DNA from: Actinoplanes sp. NBC_00393
GTDB lineage: Bacteria > Actinomycetota > Actinomycetes > Mycobacteriales > Micromonosporaceae
DNA: 64,000 nt
Assembly (NCBI RefSeq): GCF_036053395.1
Contig: NZ_CP107942.1
Coordinates: 6,156,501 to 6,220,500, forward strand
Direction of reading: 5' to 3'
The translations under genes and the position numbers were made by a program. Of the stretch, positions 39,244 through 52,985 are shown one piece after another (the stretch's first letter is position 1; each line of letters begins with the position of its first letter). The notes beneath the pieces are model-generated. The model was not told the origin of the DNA. It saw only the letters and a list, made by a program, of their open reading frames with translations, and did no database searches.

Positions 39244-39259
39244 GTAACACGTCCGAAAC
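39244..39259 (+). promoter_or_regulatory. Candidate GlnR box upstream of the urease operon
   Basis: GTAAC-n6-GAAAC matches the actinobacterial GlnR half-site pair (gTnAC-n6-GaAAc) at every conserved position and in spacing. It ends 41 bases before the ureA start. GlnR control of urease is known in other actinobacteria; binding here is inference. Confidence 0.6.
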
Positions 39260-39300
39260 TTCCACCTGCGAGCATTCCGCTGCGCGATCAGGAGGTCTCT

Positions 39301-39603
39301 TTGTTCCTCAGCCAGCACGAGCAGGAACGCCTGCTCATCCACGTCGCGGCGGACGTCGCCCGGCGCCGGCGCGAGCGGGGTCTACGGCTCAATTACCCGG
39401 AAGCCATGGCGATCATCACGGCGTTCCTGCTCGAAGGGGCACGCGACGGGAACACCGTCGCCGAGCTGATGGACAGCGGCCGCCGGGTGCTGACCCGCGA
39501 GGACGTCCTCGAGGGAGTGCCCGAGATGCTGGCCGAGGTGCAGGTCGAGGCCACCTTCCCGGACGGCACCAAGCTGGTCACCGTGCACGGGCCGATCTCA
39601 TGA
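39301..39603 (+). CDS. ureA: Urease gamma subunit
   Basis: 100 residues, the usual length: [48 protein letters not shown] is typical, ending [15 protein letters not shown]. Structural subunit of the nickel urease that splits urea into ammonia and carbamate. The start is TTG at 39301 with AGGAGG six bases upstream. First gene of ureABCFGD; overlaps ureB by four bases. Confidence 0.95.
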
Positions 39604-40010
39604 CGATCCCCGGCGAGATCATCCCCGGCGACGGCGACATCGAGATCAACCCGGGTCGACCGACGATCGCCCTGACCGTACGCAACACCGGCGACCGGCC
39701 CGTGCAGGTCGGCTCGCACTTCCACTTCGCCGAGTCGAACGCGGCCCTCGAGTTCGACCGCGACGCCGCCTGGGGACACCGGCTGGCCGTGCCGGCCGGG
39801 ACCTCCGTGCGTTTCGAGCCGGGCATCCCCCGCGATGTCGTCCTGGTGGCGCTCGCCGGCAACCGCATCGTGCCGGGCCTGCGCGGCCTGGCCGGCGGCA
39901 CGCTGGACAAGCTGCCGCCGGCGTCCGAGCCCGACCCCACCGACATCGAGCCGGCCGGCTCCCTCGACGAGGACACCGGCGAAGGCACGCACAACGGGAG
40001 CCCGCGTTGA
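39600..40010 (+). CDS. ureB: Urease beta subunit
   Basis: 136 residues beginning [20 protein letters not shown], with [15 protein letters not shown] and [15 protein letters not shown], all canonical. The last 30 residues are an acidic extension ([17 protein letters not shown]) beyond the usual about 105-residue length. ATGA overlap with ureA and TTGA overlap with ureC imply tight coupling. Confidence 0.95.
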
Positions 40011-41725
40011 CCTTCCTCGACCGCGGTCGCTACGCCGCGCTCTACGGCCCGACCGCCGGCGACCGGGTCCGGCTCGCCGACACCAACCTGCTGATCGAGA
40101 TCGAGGAGGACCGCAGCGCCGGACCACAGCCCGGCGACGAGGTCGTCTTCGGCGGCGGCAAGGTGATCCGCGAGTCGATGGGCCAGTCCCGCGCCACCCG
40201 CGCCGAGGGCACCCCGGACACCGTGATCACCGGCGTGATCGTCCTCGACCACTGGGGCATCGTCAAAGCCGACGTCGGCGTCCGCGACGGCCGGATCGTG
40301 GCGATCGGCAAGGCCGGCAACCCGGACACCATGGACGGCGTGCACCCGGAGCTGGTGATCGGCGCGAGCACCGAGATCATCGCGGGCAACGGCAAGATCC
40401 TCACGGCCGGCGCGATCGACAGCCACGTGCACCTGATCAGCCCGACCATCCTGGACACCGCGCTCGCCTCCGGCATCACCACGATCATCGGCGGCGGCAC
40501 CGGGCCGGCCGAGGGCACCAAGGCCACCACGGTCACCCCGAACGCCTGGCACCTGGCCCGGATGCTCGAGTCCCTCGACACCTGGCCGATCAACGTGCTC
40601 CTGCTCGGCAAGGGCAACACGATGTCCGCCGAGTCGATGTGGGAGCAGCTGCGCGGCGGCGCCGGCGGTTTCAAGCTGCACGAGGACTGGGGTACGACCC
40701 CGGCCGCGATCGACGCCTGCCTGAGTGTGGCGGACGCGTCCGGTGTGCAGGTGGCGATCCACACGGACACGCTGAACGAGGCGGGGTTCGTCGAGGAGAC
40801 CCTGCGGGCGATCGCCGGGCGTTCGATCCACGCGTACCACACCGAGGGAGCGGGCGGCGGCCACGCGCCGGACATCATCACCGTCGCGTCCCACCCGAAC
40901 ATCCTGCCGTCGTCGACCAACCCGACCCGGCCGTACACCCGCAACACCCTCAGCGAACACCTCGACATGCTGATGGTCTGCCACCACCTGAACTCGGCGG
41001 TGCCCGAGGACCTGGCGTTCGCCGAGAGCCGGATCCGGCCGTCCACGATGGCCGCCGAGGATGTGCTGCACGACCTGGGCGCGATCTCGATGATCGGGTC
41101 GGACTCGCAGGCCATGGGGCGGGTGGGTGAGGTGGTCACGCGTACCTGGCAGACCGCCCACGTGATGAAGGCGCGCCGCGGCGCGGCACCCGGGGACGGC
41201 GCCGCGGACAACAACCGTGCCAAGCGCTACGTCGCGAAATACACGATCTGCCCGGCGGTCGCGCACGGCATGGCCGCCCAGGTCGGCAGCATCGAGCCGG
41301 GCAAGCTGGCCGACCTGGTGCTGTGGGACCCGGCCTTCTTCGGGGTACGCCCGGCGCTCGTCATCAAGGGCGGCATGATCGCGTACGCGCAGATGGGTGA
41401 CGCGAACGCCTCGATCCCGACGCCGCAGCCGATGCTGCCCCGGCCGATGTTCGGCTCGTACGGCGTTGTGCCGTCGCAGACCTCCGTGGCCTTCGTGGCT
41501 CCGGCCGCGATCGATGCGCTGCTCAGCGACCGGATCGAGGTCAAGCGGGCGCTGGTGCCGGTCGGCGACACCCGCTCGGTGGGCAAGGCCGACATGCCGC
41601 TCAACGACGCGATGCCGCGGATCGAGGTCAAGGCCGACACCTTCGAGGTCCGGATCGACGGCGAGGTCGTCGAACCCGACCCGGTCTCGGAACTGCCCAT
41701 GGCCCAGCGGTACTTCCTGTTCTGA
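40007..41725 (+). CDS. ureC: Urease alpha subunit (catalytic)
   Basis: 572 residues. All active-site elements are present: nickel ligands HVH near residue 140, carbamylated Lys in [10 protein letters not shown] near 223, His in VAIHTDTL and [13 protein letters not shown], Asp in GSDSQAMGR near 366, and the flap Cys in MVCHHL near 325. Start is TTG at 40007, inside the ureB stop. The holoenzyme needs UreFGD for nickel insertion, all encoded next. Confidence 0.97.
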
Positions 41726-42369
41726 TGAGTCTGGCGACCCTGCTGTTGCTCGCCGACGGGCGGCTGCCGTCCGGAGGCCACGCGCACTCCGGTGGGCTGG
41801 AGGCGCAGATCGCCGGCGGCCGGGTCAAGGAGATCAGCGGGCTGGACGGCTTCCTGCGCGGCAAGCTCGCCACCGGAGGGCTGGTGTCGGCGGCCTTCGC
41901 GGCTGCGGCCTGCTCCGATGTGTCCCGCTGGTCCGCGCTGGACGCGGGTCTCGACGCGCGGACGCCGTCGCCGGCTCTGCGGAAGGCGTCCCGGGCTCAG
42001 GGACGGGCGCTGTTGCGGGCCGGGCGCGCGATGTGGCCGGTCGCGGCGGTGGGCCGGGACCCGCATCAGCCGGTTGCGCTGGGTGCGCTGGCGGCGGCAG
42101 CCGGGCTGGCGCCCGTTCAGGCCGCGGTCGCTGCGGCGCACGGCAGCATCACCGGTCCGGCCAGTGCGGCGGTCCGGCTCCTCGGACTTGATCCGTACGC
42201 GGTGCACGCGCTCCTGGCGCGACTAGCCCCTGACTGTGACCGGGTCGCGGAAGTCGCCGCGGCCCGGTGTGCGGACCCGGTCGACGAACTGCCGGCCGCG
42301 GGAGCTCCCCTGCTCGACATCGGCGCCGAGCACCACGCCACCTGGGAGGTGCGTCTCTTTGCATCCTGA
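41725..42369 (+). CDS. ureF: Urease accessory protein UreF
   Basis: 214 residues, all-helical, with [24 protein letters not shown] near the start and [33 protein letters not shown] in the C-terminal half. UreF forms the activation complex with UreD and UreG. ATG overlaps the ureC stop (TGATG); the end overlaps ureG by 11 bases. Confidence 0.93.
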
Positions 42370-43072
42370 ACTGCACGAACATGGCCCCGATGAGGTCCCC
42401 CACACCCACCCCGAACCGGGGGTGGATCCGCACGCGCCGCTGCACAGTGGCGCCCGGGCCCTGCGCATCGGTATCGGCGGCCCGGTCGGCTCCGGCAAGA
42501 CGGCGCTGGTCGCGGCGCTGTGCCGGGCGCTCGGCGAGGAACTGCGGCTCGCGGTGGTGACCAACGACATCTACACCACCGAGGACGCCGACTTCCTGCT
42601 CCGCAACGGGGTGCTGCCGGCCGAGCGGATCCGGGCGGTCGAGACCGGGTGCTGCCCGCACACGGCCATCCGGGACGACATCTCGGCGAACCTGGACGCG
42701 GTCGAGGACCTCGAGATCGAACTCGGGCCGCTCGACCTCGTACTGGTCGAGAGCGGTGGCGACAACCTGACCGCGACGTTCAGCAAGGGCCTGATCGACC
42801 AGCAGATCTTCGTGGTCGACGTGGCCGGCGGCGACAAGGTGCCCCGCAAGGGCGGCCCCGGCGTCACCACGGCCGACCTGCTCGTGATCAACAAGACGGA
42901 CCTCGCTCCGCTGGTCGGCGCCGACCTGTCAGTGATGGAGCGCGACGCCGCTGCCCGGCGCGGCGACCTGCCGACGGTCTTCCTGTCGCTGGCCGAGGAC
43001 AAGGCCGCCACCCCGGTCGCCGACTGGATCCGCGGCCTGGTCGCGGCACGCGTCGCTCCCGCCGGACGCTGA
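42359..43072 (+). CDS. ureG: Urease accessory GTPase UreG with His-rich N-terminus
   Basis: 237 residues from TTG at 42359 (GGGAGG nine bases upstream). P-loop [14 protein letters not shown], the nickel motif CCPH ([13 protein letters not shown]), [12 protein letters not shown] and guanine-specific NKTD. The first 30 residues carry seven histidines ([21 protein letters not shown]), an extension that can bind nickel. The operon has no ureE, so this tail may take over nickel storage. Confidence 0.95.
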
Positions 43073-43821
43073 TGCGGGCGTCGGCGTCGATCGTCGCGGA
43101 GGCGGACGGGCGCGGTGGCACGCGCCTCGCCGTGCTGAAGGGCGAGTCGCCGCTGTTGCTGCGCCGGACCGGGCCGCGGGACGCCGGCCGGATGACCGTG
43201 CATCTGGTCAGCGGGGGCGCTGGCCCGCTGCGTGGTGACGAGCTCGATCTGGACATCGAGGTGGCGGCCGGCGCCTGGCTGGAGATCCGCAGCGTCGCGG
43301 CGTCGCTGGCGCTGCCCGGACGGGCCGGGCTTCCAGCGTCCCGGTTGACGGTCACCGCGCGGGTGGCGGCCGGGGCGACGCTGCGCTACCAGCCCGAACC
43401 GCTGATCGCCGCGGCCGGGTGTGACCACGTGGCGGTCACCCGGGTCGACGTCGACGAGGGCGGCATCCTGCTCTGGCGGGACGATCTGGTCTGCGGACGG
43501 CATGCGGAGCCGTCCGGGGACGTCGTCGCCGACACGACGATCCGGTATGCCGGCTCGACCCTCTATCGCCACGAGCTCGCCGTCGGGCCCCGCGCGCCGG
43601 GATGGTCGGGCGCCGCGGTGCTGGGCGGCGGCCGGGCCGTCGGGACGGTGGTCGCGGCCGGGCCGGGCGTGTCCGCAAGCGCATCGGTCCCGGCGCCGGA
43701 CGCCGCGGTGATGCCGCTGGCCGGGCCGGGAGTGCTGGTCACCGTGGTGGGCGCGGACAGCCGGCAGGTGAGCGCGGTGCTGGACCCGTTCTGTGCCGGG
43801 CACCTGCCGGGCAGGCGATGA
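43072..43821 (+). CDS. ureD: Urease accessory protein UreD (UreH)
   Basis: 249 residues. The UreD beta-helix pattern is weakly conserved but recognisable: LDLDIEVAAGAWLEIRSVAA, ARVAAGATLRYQPEPLIAAAGCDH and LLWRDDLVCGRH. Scaffold that contacts the urease apoenzyme. Overlaps the ureG stop (TGATG). Last gene of the operon; its stop lies within a terminator hairpin. Confidence 0.9.
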   Translation: MRASASIVAEADGRGGTRLAVLKGESPLLLRRTGPRDAGRMTVHLVSGGAGPLRGDELDLDIEVAAGAWLEIRSVAASLALPGRAGLPASRLTVTARVAAGATLRYQPEPLIAAAGCDHVAVTRVDVDEGGILLWRDDLVCGRHAEPSGDVVADTTIRYAGSTLYRHELAVGPRAPGWSGAAVLGGGRAVGTVVAAGPGVSASASVPAPDAAVMPLAGPGVLVTVVGADSRQVSAVLDPFCAGHLPGRR

Positions 43822-43844
43822 GGGCGGCCGCAGCCGCCCTCATC
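43817..43844. terminator. Bidirectional hairpin between ureD and sigma factor gene
   Basis: GATGAGGGCGGC-n4-GCCGCCCTCATC, a perfect 12-bp stem; the ureD stop codon lies in its left arm. Serves the two convergent genes. Confidence 0.8.
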
Positions 43845-43859
43845 CAGGTCTCCGTGTGC

Positions 43860-44762
43860 TCAGGCCGCGACCGCGATGGGTACGCCGTGACTGTCGGTGA
43901 GTGCCAGCCGGGTGTGAAGGCTGCCCTGTTGCGCCACTTTGGCGAAGTACTCGGAACGGCGCCGTTGCAGGCAGCCCTTCCGGGTACGGGGTCCGCCCGC
44001 CGCCACCGTCAGGAGTTCCGGCGCCAGCGAGCTGTTCAGGCCCTCTCGCAGCAGGCGCAACGCCTCCGTGCGCAGCTGTGAGATCCGGGACTCGGTGACG
44101 CCGAGCCGGGCCGCCACCTCGCTCAGCGGCTGTTCCTGCAGGAAGGACTCCTGCACGACCTGGCGCAACCGTTCCGGCAACGCCTGGATGGCCTGATGCA
44201 GATAGCCGAGCCGTTCCCGCTTGAGCAGCAGATCCTCCGGTCCTTCGGACAGTTCCGGCACCATCTCCTCGGCCGCCCCGGTGGGGAAGCCCTGCAGGCT
44301 GAGCAGGGAGGCCTTCTGCACGTCGTCCTCGACGCTGGCCAGCTCGGACACCCCGATCCCGAGCACCTCGGCCACCTCGGCATCGCTCGGTGTCCGGCCG
44401 AGCGCGGCGGTCAGCTCCTGGCGGGCAGTGGCCGCGCGCCGGGCACGTGCCCGCACGGACCGGCTGGCCCAGTCCTGGCCGCGGAGCTCGTCCAGCAGAG
44501 CGCCGCGGATCCGGACCGCGGCGAAACGATGGAACGGGATGCCACGGGTCACGTCGAAGGAGCGGGCCGCGCCGAGCAGGGCCGCGAACCCGGCTGACGA
44601 GAGGTCATCTGCGTGGACATGGCCGGGTACCCGGTTGAGCAGTTCCCGGACCAGATGGCCAACCATCGGCATGTTTTCGCGGATCAGGTCCTCGATGTCG
44701 CGCCCCGAGGGCACGTCGTGGGCGGTGCCGATGGTGGCGGGGAGTTCGGTCGTGGTGGTCAC
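43860..44762 (-). CDS. FliA/WhiG-family RNA polymerase sigma factor
   Basis: 300 residues, sigma-70 group 3. Region 2 reads LIRENMPMVGHLVRELLNRVPGHVHADDL with DVTRGIPFHRFAAVRIRGALLDELRGQDWASRSVRARARR, the FliA/WhiG-type 2.4 region. Region 3 has LGRTPSDAEVAEVLGIG, and region 4 has RLRQVVQESFLQEQPLSEVAARLGVTESRISQLRTEALRLL. About 55 residues follow region 4, longer than usual. This class drives flagellar or sporulation genes; flagellated spores in Actinoplanes make that attractive, but targets here are unknown. GTG start with AGGAGG five bases upstream. Confidence 0.9.
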   Translation of the reverse strand: MTTTTELPATIGTAHDVPSGRDIEDLIRENMPMVGHLVRELLNRVPGHVHADDLSSAGFAALLGAARSFDVTRGIPFHRFAAVRIRGALLDELRGQDWASRSVRARARRAATARQELTAALGRTPSDAEVAEVLGIGVSELASVEDDVQKASLLSLQGFPTGAAEEMVPELSEGPEDLLLKRERLGYLHQAIQALPERLRQVVQESFLQEQPLSEVAARLGVTESRISQLRTEALRLLREGLNSSLAPELLTVAAGGPRTRKGCLQRRRSEYFAKVAQQGSLHTRLALTDSHGVPIAVAA

Positions 44763-44918
44763 GTAGTCCTCCTCGCTCGTACGAACCGGCTGGTGAAAAC
44801 CGGCTGACGAGAAGAACAGTGGCCGCCGTAAGGTGCAGCGGAGCCCGAACTCGGTTGCTTTTGTGGAGTTTTTTCACGAAAAGCCTCAGGCCCATGTGGA
44901 CCAGCGCGGACCCCGCGC

Positions 44919-44943
44919 CGGCCCGGCCACGAAGGCCGGGCCG
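44919..44943 (-). terminator. Hairpin terminator after small gene
   Basis: CGGCCCGGCC-n5-GGCCGGGCCG, a perfect 10-bp stem 5 bases past the stop of the 83-residue gene. Confidence 0.7.
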
Positions 44944-44948
44944 TGCGG

Positions 44949-45200
44949 TCAGTGCAGGACCGGCATCCGAGGCGCGAGGACCTCGGTCAGTTCGGTGTGC
45001 ACCCACGCCATCCGCTGCACCGCGACGTCCGGGTGGTCACCGAACTCGGTGGCGACGCCGGCCGCGCAGCCGTCACTGCCGTGACGGAGGATCATCGTGG
45101 TGATCGCCTGCTCGACGGTCTCCCGGTTGGGGCACTCGGACGGCTGAAGGCACGAGACGAACAGTGCCTCGGCAGCCAGATCCCTGACTGTGCTGATCAT
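44949..45200 (-). CDS. Conserved small hypothetical protein (83 aa)
   Basis: Begins MISTVRDLAAEALFVSCLQPSE and continues RETVEQAITTMILRHGSDGCAAGVATEFGDHPDVAVQRMAWVH. A short helical protein of a kind recurrent in actinomycetes, with no assigned function. GGGGAG precedes the ATG. Monocistronic: a hairpin follows it and a 256-base gap lies upstream. Confidence 0.75.
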   Translation of the reverse strand: MISTVRDLAAEALFVSCLQPSECPNRETVEQAITTMILRHGSDGCAAGVATEFGDHPDVAVQRMAWVHTELTEVLAPRMPVLH

Positions 45201-45456
45201 GTCGAACTCCCCGATGTCGACGACCTGCTAAAACTCCGGCTGAAACCCCCGCGCCGGGTGGGTGGTCATCGCCCATCATCCCCGCGGGTCGCATGCCGGC
45301 CGGCAGCCACGCCGTGCGAAAGTGCCGCAATCGAGACGTCGTCGCCCTCGTGCGGATCGGAGCAGAAGCGCCTGTCGGTATCGACTTCACCGTAACGCGG
45401 CGATCGGGTGTTCGGCCTGAGGTTTTCACCGGTGCCCACTCGATCGCCGCGTCGCG

Positions 45457-47454
45457 TCACTCTCCGTCCGTGCAGTCCGCCGGGTCGCAGTCGTTGTTGT
45501 CCAGCGACGCCCCCGGGTCCACCGGCGGCGGCGACTTGCTGGGACTCGGATCCGGGTCCGGCGACTCCGACTCGTCCGGCGGGTTCGGCTCGACCGAGAT
45601 CGACGGGCCGGGATCATCGGGGCTCGCCGAGGTCGAAGGACTGTTGCTCGTACCGGGGTTCGGCTTCACCGAGGGCTTGGTGCTCGTGCCGCGGCTCGGC
45701 GAGGCGGTCGGCCTGATCACCACGTTGCCGCTGGGCCCGATCGAGACGCCCGGGGGCGGCGTGGTGTTCACGTCGCCGAGCCGGACGTTGCCGTCGGACA
45801 GGTGCTCGACCGGCCGGGACGGCTCACCCGGCTCGCTGGACACGTACGTCTCGCAGGTCTCGCCGTTGAGCTTGAAGACCATCGGCGCCGCGTTGCTCTC
45901 CACGTAGCGGCCGGTGATCTGCATGGTCGCGGTGCGCTGCGACGCCAGCGGGCCGGCCGAGTGCACCGTGACGGCCTGGTCCTGCTGGTCCAGGTCGACC
46001 TTGTTGTTGCCGGAGACGACCTGGTCGCCGGGGAGCAGGAACCACAGGTTCCAGTCGTCGACCGGCTTGTCCGCCCGGTTCGCCAGGGTCACCTGAGCCT
46101 TGAACTTGCCCTTGTCGTCGGACCAGACCGCGTAACTGACCACGCACTGGCCGGCGGCCGGGATGACGCTGGGCTGCGGCTCGGTGGTCGCGCCGACAGC
46201 CTTGTTGTCGCGCGGCTGCCCGATCGCGGTCCACCCCCAGGTGAGCGCGCTGAGCAGGGCGACCGTGCCGGCGACCACCACGACGCGCCGGACCCGCACC
46301 TGGGTCCGGCTGGTGGCCGGCGGACGGCCGGGCGGCGACCCGGCCGGCGGCCCACCGGCACCGGGCCGCAACGGCGGCTGTGAGCTCGCTGAGCGCACCG
46401 GAGCCGGGTCGGGCACCGGCGGCTCGGCCGGCGGCGCTCCGGGCTCTGTGACGGCTCCTGCGACCACGGGATGCACCGCGTCCGGGTCGGTCACGGCGTC
46501 CTTGTTCACCGTGCCGAGTTCGGCGAAGCCGGTGTACGGGTACCCCGAGGGGAGGATGAAGGTGTCCTCGCCGTCCTCCCAGTTCGCGTCGAACCCGGAG
46601 GTGATCAGCGGGGCCTGGGCCGAGACACCGGCCAGCACATGTGCCATCTCGGCGCTGGACGGCCGGTCGGCCGGGCGCTTCTCCAGGCAGCGGCCGATCA
46701 ATGCGTCCACCTGGGGTGGCAGCCCGTCGACGGGCGGCATCGGCTCGGGCTCGGTGTACTGGTGGGCGCGCAGCAGCGCGGTCGTGGTGCCCACGTCCCA
46801 CGGCAGCTGGCCGATCAGCATCCGGTAGATCAGCAGGCCCACCGCGTAGACGTCGGTGGCCGGGCTGACCTGACCGCCCTCCAGGCGCTCGGGCGCCAGG
46901 TAGGCCGGGGTGCCCAGCAGGCTGCCGTCGTCGTCGGTGTCGTTCTCCCCGATCAGCGCGGAGATGCCGAAGTCGACCACCTTGGCGCCGCTCGCGGTGA
47001 GCATGACGTTGGCCGGGGTCACGTCGCGGTGCACGATGCCCCGCGCGTGGGCAGCCGCCAGCGCGGCCGCGACCTCGGCGCTGATCCGCACCGCGGTAGG
47101 CCACGGCAGCAGCCGGACCCGGGCCAGGACAGCCGCCAGCGACTCGCCGTCCACCAGCTCCATCACGACATACGGCACCGGCTCGCCGTCGACCGTGGTC
47201 GCCTCGCCGTAGTCGTACACATTCGTGATGTGCGGGTGCGTGAGCCGCGCCGCGGCCTGTGCCTCCGCACGCAGTCTGCGTCGGAACGAGGGATCGGCGC
47301 TCGTCGAGGGCGGCAGGACCTTGACGGCGACCTGACGCCCCAGCACTTCGTCGAACCCTCGCCATACCACTGACATCCCGCCGGCGCCGAGACGCTCGAC
47401 CAGTCGGTAGCGACCGGCGAGCAGCCCCGAACCGGGCAGGTCCGTCGTGCTCAT
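45457..47454 (-). CDS. Membrane Ser/Thr protein kinase with CBM2-like outer domain
   Basis: 665 residues from ATG at 47454; an in-frame ATG at 47466 is possible. The kinase domain (about 12-275) has GAGGMSVVW, VAVKVLPP, VVDFGISAL and LAPERL, but the catalytic loop reads HRDVTPANVM, with Thr in place of the usual Lys. A Pro-rich linker and one helix (VVVVAGTVALLSALTWGW) follow, then a domain of about 110 residues bounded by two cysteines (CVVSYAVWSDDKGKFKAQVTL...WNLWFLLPGDQVV...VFKLNGETC), the pattern of family-2 carbohydrate-binding modules. The tail is Ser/Pro/Asp-rich. It may sense a polysaccharide. Confidence 0.9.
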   Translation of the reverse strand: MSTTDLPGSGLLAGRYRLVERLGAGGMSVVWRGFDEVLGRQVAVKVLPPSTSADPSFRRRLRAEAQAAARLTHPHITNVYDYGEATTVDGEPVPYVVMELVDGESLAAVLARVRLLPWPTAVRISAEVAAALAAAHARGIVHRDVTPANVMLTASGAKVVDFGISALIGENDTDDDGSLLGTPAYLAPERLEGGQVSPATDVYAVGLLIYRMLIGQLPWDVGTTTALLRAHQYTEPEPMPPVDGLPPQVDALIGRCLEKRPADRPSSAEMAHVLAGVSAQAPLITSGFDANWEDGEDTFILPSGYPYTGFAELGTVNKDAVTDPDAVHPVVAGAVTEPGAPPAEPPVPDPAPVRSASSQPPLRPGAGGPPAGSPPGRPPATSRTQVRVRRVVVVAGTVALLSALTWGWTAIGQPRDNKAVGATTEPQPSVIPAAGQCVVSYAVWSDDKGKFKAQVTLANRADKPVDDWNLWFLLPGDQVVSGNNKVDLDQQDQAVTVHSAGPLASQRTATMQITGRYVESNAAPMVFKLNGETCETYVSSEPGEPSRPVEHLSDGNVRLGDVNTTPPPGVSIGPSGNVVIRPTASPSRGTSTKPSVKPNPGTSNSPSTSASPDDPGPSISVEPNPPDESESPDPDPSPSKSPPPVDPGASLDNNDCDPADCTDGE

Positions 47455-47833
47455 GTGCCCCCACATGCGCGCTTCGAGGAAAACGCCGGACCGCACCGCC
47501 ATGCCGCCCGACGCCGGGCGAGTCGGGCCCACCACCGGACCCCGAGCATCCCCCATCGACGGCGAGGATGTTAGTCCCTATCGGTCACCAGTTCGACCCG
47601 GGATAGCAGGATCTACCAGGCACTAGTTACGGTCAGTTCGGTTTTGTAACCGGGTTGGGTAGGCCAGGTCACGCTCCTGAGGCGGGTTGACCGGCACTAC
47701 GCGCACACGTAGCGCCACAACAAGGCCCGATTCGTCGGAACTTGCACCTTCAACCTGACGAACGATCAATTCACGAACGGTCAACATCTCGCTACGCAGA
47801 GAGATCGACTGTGTCCAAGATCTGTCAGTGGGA
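47455..47833. other. Intergenic region (379 bp) upstream of the CBM2-like kinase gene
   Basis: No convincing gene. CATGTG-n4-CACATG at 47452-47467 spans the kinase start codon, and CGGTT-n4-AACCG lies at 47639-47652; either could be a regulator site. The right part is the cphA downstream region; no strong terminator seen. Confidence 0.45.
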
Positions 47834-50581
47834 TCAGCCACGCGTTCGGGAGACGGTGAGGCTCCGCCGGACCGCCGCAACTGCCCCTGAAGCGGGCGAA
47901 TGCGGCAGCATCCGCCCCGCCGTCACCGGCACCCCGCCGGCCGGGACCGCGTCCAGTTCGGCGAGCAGCGCCCGCATCGGCGCCCAGTTCTCGTAGATCA
48001 CCAGCAGCACGTCACCGGGACCGGCCAGCCGCAGCGCGCGGGTGACTGCGTCGCGGTAGCCGTCCGCGCGGACCGCGCTCATCTCCGAACGGCGCGCCCG
48101 CATCTCGCGCTCGACGAGGGCGGAGACCTCGCCCGGCGCGCGGCCCCGCAGGTCGCAGTCGTCGTAGAGGACGGCGCGGGTCACCCCGTCGGCGAGCACC
48201 TGGGCGGAAGCGGCCAGCAGGTCGTCCCGGCGGTCTCCGGGCAGGGTGACCGCCGCTACGCAGCGTTCGGCACCCCAGAGCCGGTGAAGAGTACGGAGCG
48301 TAGCGGCGAGAGCTGCTGGATTGTGGGCATAGTCCAGAAAAATTGAGACCTCACCGTGACGGAACAGCGTCCCGCGACCCGGGTTCTCGGCGCTCGGGTC
48401 GAATTCGGCGAGCCGGTCCACCAGTGTCTCCGGGCGGGCGCCGAGAGCCCGGGCGGCAGCGATGGCGGCCAGGGTGTTCGCCGCCACGTGCAATGCCGCT
48501 CCCCCGTACGCGCCGGGCACCTCGGCCAGCCGCACCAGCGGGGTGCGCCGCGCGCCGGTCGCCTGCACCAGCCAGCCGTCATGCAGCACGTACGCCGTGG
48601 ACCCACGGGCCAGATGGTCGGTGATCACCGGGTTGCCGGCGTCCAGGCCGAACCAGACGAGGCGTTTGCGGTCCGCGCGCACCCGCGGCCGGTCGGCCAG
48701 ACTGCGCACCCACGGGTCGTCGGCGTTCAGGACCAGCGTGCCGCCGTCCCGGACCCGTTCCGCCACCACCGCCTTGACGTGCGCCAGGTCCTCGATCGAG
48801 TCCAGCCCGTCCTGGCCGAGGTGATCCGCCGTGATGTTGGTGATCACGCCCACGTCCGACCAGTCGTAGCCGAGCCCGCGCCGCAGCAGCCCGCCGCGCG
48901 CGGTCTCCAGGACCGCCGCCTCCACCTGCGGGTCGCCGAGCACCATCTGCGCCGACCGCGGCCCGGTCGCGTCCGAGACGTGGATCGTCCGGCCGTCGAT
49001 GCTGACGCCGTCGGTGCTGGCCACGCCGACCCGGGTGCCGCTGCCGCCGAGCAGGTGGGCGGTGAGCCGGGTGACGGTGGTCTTGCCGTTGGTCCCGGTC
49101 ACCGCCACGGTCGGGATCCGCCCGTCCGAGCCGCTGGGGAACATCGCCCGCACGATCGCGTCGCCCACGTCCCGGGCCCGGCCGTGCACCGGGGCCAGGT
49201 GCATCCGCAACCCCGGTACGGCGTTCACCTCGATCACCCCGGCGGCGACCTCGTCCGGGTCACCGGCCGGCGGCACCGGCGCCGCGATGTCCGGCAGCCG
49301 CAGGTCGATCCCGGCGATGTCCAGCCCGACCAGCGCGGCGACCCGCTGGCACAGCAGGGTCACGTCCGGATGGACCTGGTCGGTGACGTCCCGGCTGGTG
49401 CCGCCGGTGGAAAGGTTGGCGTTGTCGCGCAGCCACACGGTCGCGCCGTCGGCCGGCACGTCGTCCGGGGTGAGTCCCCGGCCGGCGAGCAACTGTTCGT
49501 CCAGCTCGATCCGGGTGAGCATCCGGGAGTGGCCGGCGCCGCGGCGCGGGTCCGCGTTGGTGCGGTCGACCAGCTCCCGGATCGTGGCCCGGCCGTCGCC
49601 GATCACGTGCGCGGCGATCCGCTCGGCGGCCGCCACCACCTCGCCGGCGACCACCAGGACCCGGTAGTCGCGGCCGCCGAGTTGCCGCTCGACGACCACG
49701 TCGTTGCCCGCCTGCGTGCAGGCCCGTTCCACCTCGGCGGGGGTGGTGAGGTTCAGCGCGACGTTGCGGCCGTGGTGACCGTGCCGGGGTTTCACCACCA
49801 CCGGGGACCCGAGCGCGGCCAGCAGGCGTACCGCCTCGGCCGGGCCGGACGCCGCGCCGCCCGGCGGGACCGGGACGCCCGCCTCGCTGAGCAGGCGGCG
49901 GGTGACCTGTTTGTCGCCGGCGATGTCGACGCCGACGCCGCTGGTCCGGTCGGTCATCGCGGCCCAGGCCAGCCGGCGGCGTACGCCCCACCCGAGCCGG
50001 ACCAGGCTGAGGTCGTCGAAACGTTCCACCGGGATGCCGCGGCGGCGTGCGGCGGCGATGATCGACCGGGTGCTGGGCCCGGTCGCCTCCCGCTCGGCGA
50101 GTGCCGCCAGGTCGCGCAGGCGCTCGGCCATGGCGGACGCGGTCGGGCCGGGGTTGCCCTCGTACACCTCCAGGACCAGGCGGATCGCGGCGTCCAGGAG
50201 CTCGTGCGGCACCCGCGACTCCGGCGACTCGTCCACCGGGCACTCGACGATCACGTCGTACACGCCGGGCTCACCGGCCGCGACGGTCCGGCCGAAGCTC
50301 ACGTCCCGCCCGATCAGCTGGGAGAGTTCGATGCAGACGTGCTCGGTGACGTGCCCGAAGTAGGTGCCGTTGCGGAGCCGGCTGACGAACCCCCCGGGCG
50401 CCCCGGCCGCACAGTGGTGCTCGGCGAGCCCGGGCAGCGCCCGCAGCAGCCGCTCGGTGAAGCCGGTGACGTCGCAGGTCTCCTGCCCGGTCAGCTCCGC
50501 CAGCCGCAGCCGGGCGACCATCGCCGGACGGGACAGATAGACGTTGGGGCCGCGCAGGCGGCGCAGCGTTTCGATCTTCAT
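47834..50581 (-). CDS. cphA: Cyanophycin synthetase
   Basis: Builds multi-L-arginyl-poly-L-aspartate, a nitrogen store, from Asp and Arg with ATP. 915 residues. The N-terminal domain starts MKIETLRRLRGPNVYLSRP; the ATP-grasp part has VVVKPRHGHHGRNVALNL and GVIEVNAVPGLRMHL; the Mur-ligase-like half has the P-loop VAVTGTNGKTTVTRL, NITADHLGQDG and FLDYAHNPAAL. ATG at 50581 is the homologous start; the frame is open further upstream. ATGA overlap with cphB. Common in cyanobacteria, scattered in actinobacteria. Confidence 0.95.
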   Translation of the reverse strand: MKIETLRRLRGPNVYLSRPAMVARLRLAELTGQETCDVTGFTERLLRALPGLAEHHCAAGAPGGFVSRLRNGTYFGHVTEHVCIELSQLIGRDVSFGRTVAAGEPGVYDVIVECPVDESPESRVPHELLDAAIRLVLEVYEGNPGPTASAMAERLRDLAALAEREATGPSTRSIIAAARRRGIPVERFDDLSLVRLGWGVRRRLAWAAMTDRTSGVGVDIAGDKQVTRRLLSEAGVPVPPGGAASGPAEAVRLLAALGSPVVVKPRHGHHGRNVALNLTTPAEVERACTQAGNDVVVERQLGGRDYRVLVVAGEVVAAAERIAAHVIGDGRATIRELVDRTNADPRRGAGHSRMLTRIELDEQLLAGRGLTPDDVPADGATVWLRDNANLSTGGTSRDVTDQVHPDVTLLCQRVAALVGLDIAGIDLRLPDIAAPVPPAGDPDEVAAGVIEVNAVPGLRMHLAPVHGRARDVGDAIVRAMFPSGSDGRIPTVAVTGTNGKTTVTRLTAHLLGGSGTRVGVASTDGVSIDGRTIHVSDATGPRSAQMVLGDPQVEAAVLETARGGLLRRGLGYDWSDVGVITNITADHLGQDGLDSIEDLAHVKAVVAERVRDGGTLVLNADDPWVRSLADRPRVRADRKRLVWFGLDAGNPVITDHLARGSTAYVLHDGWLVQATGARRTPLVRLAEVPGAYGGAALHVAANTLAAIAAARALGARPETLVDRLAEFDPSAENPGRGTLFRHGEVSIFLDYAHNPAALAATLRTLHRLWGAERCVAAVTLPGDRRDDLLAASAQVLADGVTRAVLYDDCDLRGRAPGEVSALVEREMRARRSEMSAVRADGYRDAVTRALRLAGPGDVLLVIYENWAPMRALLAELDAVPAGGVPVTAGRMLPHSPASGAVAAVRRSLTVSRTRG

Positions 50582-51351
50582 GCGGCTCGTCCCCGTTCTG
50601 CGGCCGGTTGACGGCCCATGAGATGGAAGGTGTAGCCGGCCGGCAGCACGTGGATTCGTGCCCCGGCCAGGGCGATCGGCCCGGTCGGCGGAACCCGGAT
50701 GTCGGTGGCGCACCCGGCGTCGACGACCGTGACCGCGCCGTTGCCGAGCACCTCGAACCGGTCGCCGTCGGTCAATATCGCGGTGTCCTCGTCGATGCCC
50801 ACGCCGAGCTCGTGCGGGTAGCGGGCGACCGCGCCGAGCAGACGGTTCAGCCGGCCGCGTTCGGCGAAGTGCTGGTCGATCAGGACCCCGGGCAGGAATT
50901 CCAGGCCCGGGCCGGTCGAAACCCCGCCGGGGCCGTCACCTCCGGTGATCATGGTGCCGGACATCATGGCCGCGCCCGCGCTGGTCCCGGCGAGCACCAC
51001 CGAGCCGTCGCCGACCAGCGCCTGTAGCAGCGAGTCGGCGGTCGTGCCACCGATCACCCGGGTGATCCGCTCCTGGTCGCCGCCGGTGAAGAAGACCCCG
51101 GTGGCCGGGCGCAGCACCGGCTCGACGCCGGGCGCGTTCGCCTCGCTGCGGGAGGAGAGACGCAGGGGTCGTACCTCGCCGGCGCCGAGGGCGAGGAACT
51201 TCTCGATGTACGCGGCCTCGGCGGTCTCCGGCGTCTCGCTGGCCGTCGCGATCACCACGATCCGGGCGGCCGCGGAACCGGCCAGCTCGACGAACCGTTG
51301 GAGCAGGGCCGGCCCGGCGGCCCCACCCATGATCAGAAGCCGGCCATCCAC
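50578..51351 (-). CDS. cphB: Cyanophycinase
   Basis: Serine-type exopeptidase that breaks cyanophycin into beta-Asp-Arg dipeptides. 257 residues, with GVFFTGGDQERI, the nucleophile Ser124 in VLAGTSAGAAMM and GLEFLPGVLIDQHFAERGRLNRL, all canonical. No signal peptide, so intracellular. GTG start with AGGAGGAG upstream. Heads the cphBA operon; a GlnR-like box and a nested palindrome precede it. Confidence 0.95.
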   Translation of the reverse strand: MDGRLLIMGGAAGPALLQRFVELAGSAAARIVVIATASETPETAEAAYIEKFLALGAGEVRPLRLSSRSEANAPGVEPVLRPATGVFFTGGDQERITRVIGGTTADSLLQALVGDGSVVLAGTSAGAAMMSGTMITGGDGPGGVSTGPGLEFLPGVLIDQHFAERGRLNRLLGAVARYPHELGVGIDEDTAILTDGDRFEVLGNGAVTVVDAGCATDIRVPPTGPIALAGARIHVLPAGYTFHLMGRQPAAERGRAA

Positions 51352-51358
51352 CGCTCCT

Positions 51359-51379
51359 CCTCAGTGACTACTGCTGAGG
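51359..51379. promoter_or_regulatory. Nested palindrome in the cphB leader
   Basis: CCTCAG-n9-CTGAGG with CAGT-n4-ACTG inside, immediately before the cphB ribosome site. Could be an operator or an mRNA hairpin. Confidence 0.45.
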
Positions 51380-51385
51380 ATATTC

Positions 51386-51401
51386 GGAACAAATACGAAA
51401 C
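51386..51401 (+). promoter_or_regulatory. Candidate GlnR box upstream of cphBA
   Basis: GGAAC-n6-GAAAC, read on the plus strand, 35-50 bases upstream of the cphB start. One mismatch to gTnAC-n6-GaAAc. Similar to the urease-operon box at 39244. Confidence 0.5.
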
Positions 51402-51407
51402 ATCTGG

Positions 51408-52985
51408 CTAATCGGTGTTGTGTGACAGGAGGTGCTTGACTTCCGGCGGCCCCTCGGCCAGCGCGATCAGCCGCTCCTCGGCCCGCTCGTCCTCGCCGGT
51501 CAGCCGGCCCTCGTGCTGGCGCAGATGCTCGGCCCAGGTCGGCACCAGGTAGACCTCGACGAAGATCGCCGGGTCCGCGCCGTCGCGGAACAGCCCCCAC
51601 TGCGTGGCCCCGGTACGCTGCCGCGACCAGCGCAGCTCGTGCATCCCGGCGGCGAAAGTCTCGGTGTTCGCCTCGGGCACCCGCCAGGTCGCCGAGACCA
51701 GCACCGGGCCGTCGTCCAGGTGCGGTTCGATCATGAGGTGCGGTTCGGCCCAGAAGACGGCCGGGGCGGGGTCGCGCTCCTCGTGGGTGTGCACGGGCAG
51801 GATCCGTACGCTCAAGGTGCCGGCGACCATCACCGCCGCGGCCACGCCGAACGTCTCGGTGAGGCCGAAGGCCTCGGCGACCTGGCCCCACAGCAGCGCG
51901 CCGACCGCCTGCCCACCGGCGAAGCAGAGCTGGTAGATGGCGAGCGCGCGGGCACGCACCCAGTTCGGCAGCAGCAGCTGCAGTGCCGCGTTCATCCGCG
52001 ACACCAGCATCATCCAGGCCAGACCCGCGCCGACCAGCGCCACCGTGACGGCGACCCGGTCCGGCACGAGCGCGATGACCGCCAGCGCGGCGCCGTAGAT
52101 CAGCCCGGTCCCGGCGATCATCTGGTTGGTGCGGAACCGCACGCGTACCCGCGGCATCAGCAGCGCGCCCACGATCGCGCCCACGCCCAGCGCTGCCAGC
52201 AGCACGCCGTAGCCGCTCGCGCCCATCCCGAGTTCCTCGCGGGCGATCAGCGGCAGCAGGCCCCAGATCGCGCTGCCGGGAAGCACGAACAGCACGACAC
52301 GGCCCAGGATCCGCCGGATCGACGGCGAGTAGCGCACGTAGCGCCCGCCGGCCCGCAGCGCCGAGCCGAAATGCTCCGGGTGCCCGGAGAGCGTCCGGGC
52401 CGGGCGCCGCCAGAGGAGCAGCACCAGCGCGAACACCGCGAAGGAGAGGGCGTTCAGCGCGAAGACCGCGGCCGGGCCGAGATGCGCCACCAGCAGGCCG
52501 CCGACCGCGGGCCCGGCGGACCGGGCCAGGTTGGTGTTGATCGCGCCGAGCGCGGACGCGGCCGGCAGCTGGTCGTGCGGCACCACCTCGGGAATCAGCG
52601 CCTGCCACGACGGCAGCGTCAGCGCCTGCCCGACCCCGAGCAGGAACGTGAAGATCAACAGCAGCGGAGGCGGCATCCGGTCCAGCGCGGTGAGCGCGGC
52701 CAGCACCGCGCCCACCCCGAAGAGCCCGATCTGTACGCCGAGCAGCATCCGCCGCCGGTCCAGCGTGTCCGCCAGCGCCCCGGACGGCAGGGCGAAGAGC
52801 AGCACCGGCAGCATGGTGACCGCCTGCACCAGACTGACCCAGGTCGCCGCGCCGGGCTCGTGCACCACCAGCCATTGCGCGCCGACGGTCTGCATCCAGG
52901 TGCCGACGTTGCTGGCGAGCACGGCCAGCCAGAGCATCCGGAAGACGGGCTGCCGCAGGGGCGCCCACGGGTCGTTGTCGGTCAC
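51408..52985 (-). CDS. MFS exporter with C-terminal ABM-like domain
   Basis: 525 residues. The first 400 form an enterobactin-exporter-type MFS (MLWLAVLASNVGTWMQTVGAQWLV, GALADTLDRRRML, LIPEVVPHDQLPAASAL). The last 100 (VLVSATWRVPEANTETFAAGMHELRWSRQRTGATQWGLFRD...FVEVYLVPTWAEHLRQH) resemble a dimeric antibiotic-biosynthesis-monooxygenase fold, an arrangement seen in other actinobacterial exporters. GTG start overlaps the HxlR stop (GTGA), so the two are coupled. Substrate unknown. Confidence 0.87.
   Translation of the reverse strand: MTDNDPWAPLRQPVFRMLWLAVLASNVGTWMQTVGAQWLVVHEPGAATWVSLVQAVTMLPVLLFALPSGALADTLDRRRMLLGVQIGLFGVGAVLAALTALDRMPPPLLLIFTFLLGVGQALTLPSWQALIPEVVPHDQLPAASALGAINTNLARSAGPAVGGLLVAHLGPAAVFALNALSFAVFALVLLLWRRPARTLSGHPEHFGSALRAGGRYVRYSPSIRRILGRVVLFVLPGSAIWGLLPLIAREELGMGASGYGVLLAALGVGAIVGALLMPRVRVRFRTNQMIAGTGLIYGAALAVIALVPDRVAVTVALVGAGLAWMMLVSRMNAALQLLLPNWVRARALAIYQLCFAGGQAVGALLWGQVAEAFGLTETFGVAAAVMVAGTLSVRILPVHTHEERDPAPAVFWAEPHLMIEPHLDDGPVLVSATWRVPEANTETFAAGMHELRWSRQRTGATQWGLFRDGADPAIFVEVYLVPTWAEHLRQHEGRLTGEDERAEERLIALAEGPPEVKHLLSHNTD

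Follow-up and report, generated by a model that had tools for sequence, protein, structure and literature searches.

The box that GlnR reads before glnA, amtB and ureA in Streptomyces has the form gTnAc-n6-GaAAc, in which the A at position 4 of the half-site is irreplaceable, and such boxes often lie on the coding strand, with exceptions such as SCO0888, a non-coding-strand case (PMC10704036). In Mycobacterium smegmatis, chromatin immunoprecipitation with sequencing (ChIP-seq) yielded the GlnR consensus Gn2AC-n6-GnAACA, and about 7% of the regulon genes are repressed by GlnR in this organism (PMC3662644), while in Amycolatopsis mediterranei GlnR represses ald by binding at the start site (PMC4140684). 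Urease is a described target as well: ureA is under GlnR control in Streptomyces coelicolor and Streptomyces venezuelae, and two of the three urease operons of Saccharopolyspora erythraea are under positive GlnR control (PMC10704036, PMC3087709). Here we describe two sites in a 64,000-nucleotide stretch of the Actinoplanes sp. NBC_00393 genome (the window; positions 6156501-6220500 of a single contig of 11.43 Mb), one before the urease operon and one before the cyanophycin (cph) operon, which a first-pass annotation had taken for matching GlnR boxes. On our reading of their letters and layout, they are two different control sites, both of them conserved. The site before ureA is strongly supported as a GlnR box. 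The stretch 51375-51412, before the cyanophycinase gene cphB, is a genuine clade-specific operator-promoter of the cyanophycin operon. That GlnR would activate urease from its box and would also be the likeliest reader of the cphBA promoter-operator, there with the opposite output, is a picture to which we give about an even chance.

The genome carries a glnR gene beside mshD (L036:2388-3164, minus strand), whose product matches PDB entry 8hih_O best (E 1.2e-89) and also matches 4o1h, named GlnR (E 1.1e-28). To score candidate sites, we built a GlnR matrix from five box families of the genus (glnA1 and glnA2, 20 sequences each; amtB1 and amtB2, 18 each; ureA, 28), whose members are presumed to be GlnR-bound by reference to other species, not from binding in Actinoplanes. 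The letters GTAAC-n6-GAAAC at 39244-39259 were confirmed, 41 bases before the TTG start of ureA at 39301 and, as the first-pass annotation had it, in full agreement with the GlnR half-site pair. The urease side of the window comprises the following features.

39244-39259, plus strand: strongly supported GlnR box of ureA, GTAAC-ACGTCC-GAAAC (a-site, spacer, b-site; GTAACACGTCCGAAAC), from the letters read, the matrix and conservation
39270-39275, plus strand: predicted -10 hexamer of ureA, GAGCAT, 10 nt past the b-site with TGC before it, from the conserved offset
39301-39603, plus strand: ureA, urease gamma subunit (PF00547, E 2.9e-45)
39600-40010, plus strand: ureB, urease beta subunit, with its ATG at 39600 (PF00699)
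40007-41725, plus strand: ureC, urease alpha subunit (PF00449 and PF01979)
41725-42369, plus strand: ureF (PF01730)
42236-43072, plus strand: open reading frame (ORF) containing ureG, whose true start lies inside the ORF (PF02492 CobW/HypB/UreG domain, residues 78-246)

The ureA box matches the Streptomyces form exactly and likewise stands on the coding strand; relative to the M. smegmatis consensus, it has T in place of the final A. The window contains a single GTNAC-n6-GAAAC, compared with 0.13 in shuffled sequences, and the box ranks first among the 127,966 window positions scanned with the matrix, at 24.3 bits or, with the ureA sequences excluded from it, at 21.5 bits. None of the 799,320 background positions, drawn from twenty 20-kb stretches, reaches 18 bits. 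Within the genus, the box or a close variant precedes ureA at 29 of 30 loci. It is exact at 25 (24 of the 28 loci of the matrix set, and L101) and varied at four, with a TTCAC a-site in two and a GCAAT or a GCAAC b-site in one each. The matrix and spacing sets leave out L101, which lies at a contig end and was read separately, and L093, where only a degenerate box, GTGACACTGCGGATAC, is found. The genome that harbours L093 has two ureA copies (L093 on G030:C2, the other at G030:C13:132910), and it is the L093 copy that has the degenerate box.

The layout of the ureA site is equally regular. Across the genus, glnA is preceded by GTAACACGACGGAAAC or a near form and then by a second pair (20 of 21 loci used; L179 was left out, as its box did not match the search expression), and amtB by TTCACACGTnnGAAAC, a second pair and a third GAAAC. 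Counted from the last b-site, NAnnnT starts at offset 10 at all 20 glnA, all 18 amtB and all 28 ureA loci, and also at L101; PhoB boxes have comparable spacing. The ureA site thus shares its layout with two promoters that are activated by GlnR in other actinobacteria. Bound head-to-tail at 39244-39259, 10 bp upstream of a weak -10 hexamer, GlnR would recruit RNA polymerase when nitrogen is short. GlnR control of urease being already reported in other actinobacteria, a GlnR box at ureA is expected.

Genome-wide pattern searches returned 35 sites for GTNAC-n6-GAAAC and six for the backward pattern. Among 20 proteins scanned near the 35 sites, few belong to classic nitrogen genes besides ureA and a glutamine synthetase, and the presence of the exact string is therefore not enough to establish control by GlnR. 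Five of the sites in this genome (L002, L010, L014, L019 and L035) precede glycosidase, solute-binding or LacI-type genes, the highest of them scoring 20.9 bits before a GH16 protein at L002, which suggests either that GlnR control has a branch for carbohydrate genes or that an unrelated motif resembles its box. A separate observation in the urease operon is a sub-threshold Rfam match to 5_ureB_sRNA at 40163-40458 on the minus strand, antisense in ureC (28.4 bits, gathering threshold 40), which probably reflects coding-sequence likeness.

The second site differs from the first in letters, orientation and spacing. It is embedded in a longer element, and the cyanophycin side of the window reads as follows.

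51375-51412, minus strand: 38-bp cyanophycin promoter-operator element (ATTAGCCAGATGTTTCGTATTTGTTCCGAATATCCTCA on the minus strand), heading the cph operon of all 67 genus genomes searched
51386-51401, minus strand: operator core, an 11-bp direct repeat, GGAAC-AAATAC-GAAAC on the plus strand (GGAACAAATACGAAAC), from the matrix and the M. smegmatis consensus
51408-51412, minus strand: possible third in-register half-site, ATTAG toward cphB (CTAAT on the plus strand), conserved
51377-51382, minus strand: predicted -10 hexamer of the cph operon, TATCCT, 3 nt past GTTCC, from the TAnnnT offset
50578-51351, minus strand: cphB, cyanophycinase, peptidase S51 (PF03575)
47834-50581, minus strand: cphA, cyanophycin synthetase (PF18921, PF08245, PF02875 and PF08443)

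The ATG of cphA overlaps the stop codon of cphB (ATGA), and the two genes therefore probably form one operon. The core lies where the first-pass annotation had placed it, at a distance of 34 rather than 35 bases from the GTG of cphB at 51351. Since cphB is on the minus strand, the box faces away from the gene: read toward cphB, it is GTTTC-n6-GTTCC, the reverse of the ureA orientation. Extended by one letter on each half, the core becomes GTTTCG-n5-GTTCCG, an 11-bp direct repeat, and at all 27 loci TAnnnT stands 3 nt past GTTCC; in the window, the hexamer TATCCT is kept although its flanking letters depart from the consensus. The MFS-type ORF upstream has its stop codon within the possible third half-site. 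With the matrix, the core ranks second in the window at 13.3 bits, and four of 300 column-permuted matrices score as high at cphB; a further string, GAAACATCTGGCTAAT, has GAAAC in common with the core and takes seventh place at 10.4 bits.

Conservation is what sets this element apart from a chance match. Upstream of cphB, the 38-bp consensus ATTAGCCGGATGTTTCGnWTTTGTTCCGWTTAAYCTCA is present at 27 of 28 genus loci, and the 28th has an inverted core. These 27 loci were found by their cphB protein, and their letters are hence free of pattern bias; the inverted locus L053 is left out of the alignment and spacing sets, and L072 and L073, which belong to other families, are left out of all cph counts. 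The 25-bp pattern GTTTCNNNNTTGTTCCGNTTANNCT, searched with at most one mismatch, occurs in exactly one place in 64 of 67 genus genomes and never in the backward control. Of 300 family genomes searched, 64 contain it, all of them from this genus, whereas the 233 genomes outside the genus lack it. Taken together, all 67 genus genomes carry the element in front of the cph operon, 64 by the pattern, two with an inverted core and one in altered form; in G011, it retains 34 of the 38 letters and lies 84 bp before cphA. As the search pattern contains part of the -10 hexamer and part of both half-sites, the agreement of the 64 pattern-found genomes on these letters is partly built in.

All 66 pattern places share the strand of cphA and immediately precede the operon, 15 of them 13-106 bp and 51 of them 769-936 bp from cphA, the latter distance being about the length of cphB. 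In those genomes lacking cphB that were inspected by translation or comparison, cphA follows the element directly. In 15 of the 66 genus genomes and in G011, the gap between element and cphA is too small for cphB, which may point to repeated loss or gain of this gene. Outside the genus, the best of seven cphB loci in Micromonospora, Virgisporangium, Actinoallomurus and Actinomadura reaches 12.0 bits, 962 bp away, within the 1.5 kb scanned upstream. The cphB upstream regions of Actinoallomurus and Actinomadura (L243, L256 and L258) have a conserved stretch of their own in common, around GTAACTAGCTGTCGTGACCGACATAACGG (with GTAGCTAGC at L258), possibly a different control element.

In two genomes, G026 (L053, L295) and G068 (L294, L308), the core is inverted, while the downstream TTTAATCTCAG and the -10 hexamer are kept; the inverted cores stand 7 bp from the hexamer, not 10 bp. 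The cphB proteins of L053 and L202 (A. couchii) are 94% identical, which is why the inversion was probably inherited once. Across the 27 aligned loci, A4 and C5 are invariant in both half-sites. The b-like half-site is GAAAC in 62 of 65 genomes, GCAAC in two and GTAAC in one, and both minor forms also occur among the GlnR half-sites of the genus.

How the cph core compares with described GlnR sites depends on the reference. Held against the Streptomyces boxes, it has the GaAAc b-site 11 bp from the a-site; it lacks the T of the a-site (GGAAC), is reversed and is without the 10-bp spacing. Of the two boxes that had been called matching, that of ureA is thus a textbook case, and that of cphB departs from it in these three respects. 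Held against the M. smegmatis consensus, in contrast, GGAAC-AAATAC-GAAACA (51386-51402, the core and its next base) fits at every fixed letter, as do 25 of the 28 genus loci, even though Gn2AC-n6-GnAACA is a loose pattern, found twice in the window against an expectation of 0.84. As its a-site deviates and GlnR binding to it is a prediction, we do not class the cph site as a GlnR box. Its reversed core and offset of 3 exclude the activator layout, but not GlnR binding, for which we consider the case somewhat better than even.

If GlnR is the reader, the reversed core and the 3-bp spacing point to opposite control of the two operons rather than to plain co-control, and repression is the likelier output at cph. 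Judged from the predicted hexamers and the presumed transcription start, an 11-bp direct repeat of GNAAC half-sites would lie in the spacer that separates the -35 from the -10 position, 3 bp short of TAnnnT, and a dimer bound there would block polymerase. The cyanophycin genes would then be shut by GlnR under nitrogen shortage and released when nitrogen is plentiful. An inverted core with the -10 hexamer kept, as in the two genomes above, fits a blocking site more readily than an activating one. The closest described parallel is ald of A. mediterranei, with which cph would have in common a site at the promoter start and, as predicted here, silence under nitrogen limitation; ald, however, encodes an ammonium-assimilating enzyme, whereas cph is a storage polymer operon. 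In this specific form, with GlnR activating urease from a forward box and repressing cyanophycin synthesis from a reversed, clade-specific box in the promoter spacer, we hold the proposal tentatively, at somewhat less than an even chance.

Several observations weigh against it. The a-like half-site at cph has G at position 2 in 63 of 65 genomes, C in two and T in none, and G also in the two inverted genomes; in the glnA, amtB and ureA reference boxes, this position is T (84) or A (20) in 104 of 104. The cph spacers (AAATAC, AAAACC and similar) are unlike the usual reference spacers (ACGACG, ACGTCG, ACGTAC, GCGCCG, GCCGGG), and the site is neither on the coding strand nor at activator spacing, being reversed with an offset of 3. 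With ureA left out of the matrix, it drops to rank 3 at 12.1 bits, and four of the 799,320 background positions reach 13.33 bits, corresponding to about 114 expected genome-wide. GGAAC-n6-GAAAC is not enriched in the genome (three sites, two for the backward pattern), which leaves this form, unlike the exact ureA pattern, at chance frequency, and the short core GTTTCNNNNTTGTTCCG, allowing one mismatch, is found seven times, six of them away from cphB, compared with two backward matches. On the urease side, the response of ureA to nitrogen starvation differs between species, with induction in S. venezuelae and repression in S. coelicolor (PMC3087709). Finally, repression by GlnR would silence synthetase and cyanophycinase together, so that the physiology is not clear-cut.

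The most serious alternative is that the cph element serves as operator for a different protein that uses 11-bp direct repeats, either a member of the OmpR family, such as MtrA or PhoP, or some other Actinoplanes regulator. The likeness to a GlnR box at cph would then be a family resemblance, and ureA would remain a GlnR target. We regard this as a substantial possibility, though one well short of even. The half-site CGRAACA is highly conserved and differs from the a-site seen in GlnR boxes of the genus, and the 25-bp pattern, present exactly once in each of 64 of the 67 genomes, is more in keeping with a dedicated than with a global regulator. MtrA reportedly binds some GlnR boxes at least, and its Streptomyces sites, GtnAcC-n5-GTnAcn, are OmpR-type direct repeats as is the cph core (PMC13189361). 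However, the cph half-sites, GGAAC and GAAAC, are without the GTnAC of GTnACC-n5-GTnAC, the b-like GAAAC is a GlnR form, and the binding letters agree with the M. smegmatis GlnR consensus. Moreover, no DNA-binding regulator was recognised adjoining the cph operon among the subset of ORFs scanned; its upstream neighbour is an MFS-type transporter and its downstream neighbour a Ser/Thr kinase, and a sigma factor lies some 3 kb past cphA. The PhoP unit is GTTCACC, and by eye it fits the cph element poorly.

A common switch, by which GlnR would occupy the two boxes and drive both operons the same way, is unlikely. The two strings do look like pairs of GlnR half-sites, and each operon has to do with nitrogen, but the cph core is reversed and stands 3 bp, not 10 bp, from the -10 hexamer, a distance that becomes 7 bp in the inverted genomes. 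The first-pass proposal of one nitrogen regulator for both operons is accordingly borne out for ureA, where the letters, conservation and spacing strongly support it; for cph, plain co-control does not agree with the layout, which, if GlnR is the reader, predicts the opposite sign.

A still less likely explanation is that the element is a core promoter only, for the housekeeping or an alternative sigma factor, without any separate regulator. The position of TAnnnT is indeed constant across all 27 loci and the spacing within the element is tight, yet a consensus scan found no sigma-70-type promoter at cph, the invariant letters include the spacer direct repeat, which a core promoter does not need, and the core can invert while the -10 hexamer is kept. 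Compared by eye, FliA/WhiG, SigB and ECF promoter patterns did not fit the cph region, and no Rfam match was found at the element.

Window matches to GTNAC-n6-GAAAC with at most one mismatch are at chance level (seven, the ureA box included, against 6.17 expected), so that the letters of the cphB string alone prove nothing, but that this string is a chance match without function is refuted by the conservation of the element, which heads the operon in all 67 genus genomes, and by the absence of the 25-bp pattern from the 233 other family genomes.

The two operons are not neighbours in this window by accident. The distance between ureA and cphB is 8.3-17.1 kb in 25 of 28 genomes, with the genes on different contigs in two and 5.2 Mb apart in one, and in three further genomes, which have the element before cphA and no cphB, the element lies 11.3-13.7 kb from ureA; such short distances across genomes make the pairing usual in the genus. 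Between the operons, the window encodes on its minus strand a sigma factor with regions 2, 3 and 4 (43860-44762) and a Ser/Thr kinase with a CBM_2 domain (45457-47556).

A search of the open-licence literature found no paper that describes the control of cyanophycin genes in actinobacteria, and none on Actinoplanes and cyanophycin or on GlnR, urease and Actinoplanes. This agrees with the initial remark that GlnR control of actinobacterial cyanophycin genes is little described, an absence that such a search does not prove. For this clade, the 10-bp spacing shared by glnA, amtB and ureA may help to separate activated from repressed GlnR targets. An operator that is kept in 67 of 67 genus genomes gives a precise entry point to the timing of nitrogen storage in these bacteria. 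If our interpretation is correct, the release of nitrogen by urease and its storage as cyanophycin, chromosomal neighbours, would be wired to one sensor with opposite sign, as a release-or-store switch.

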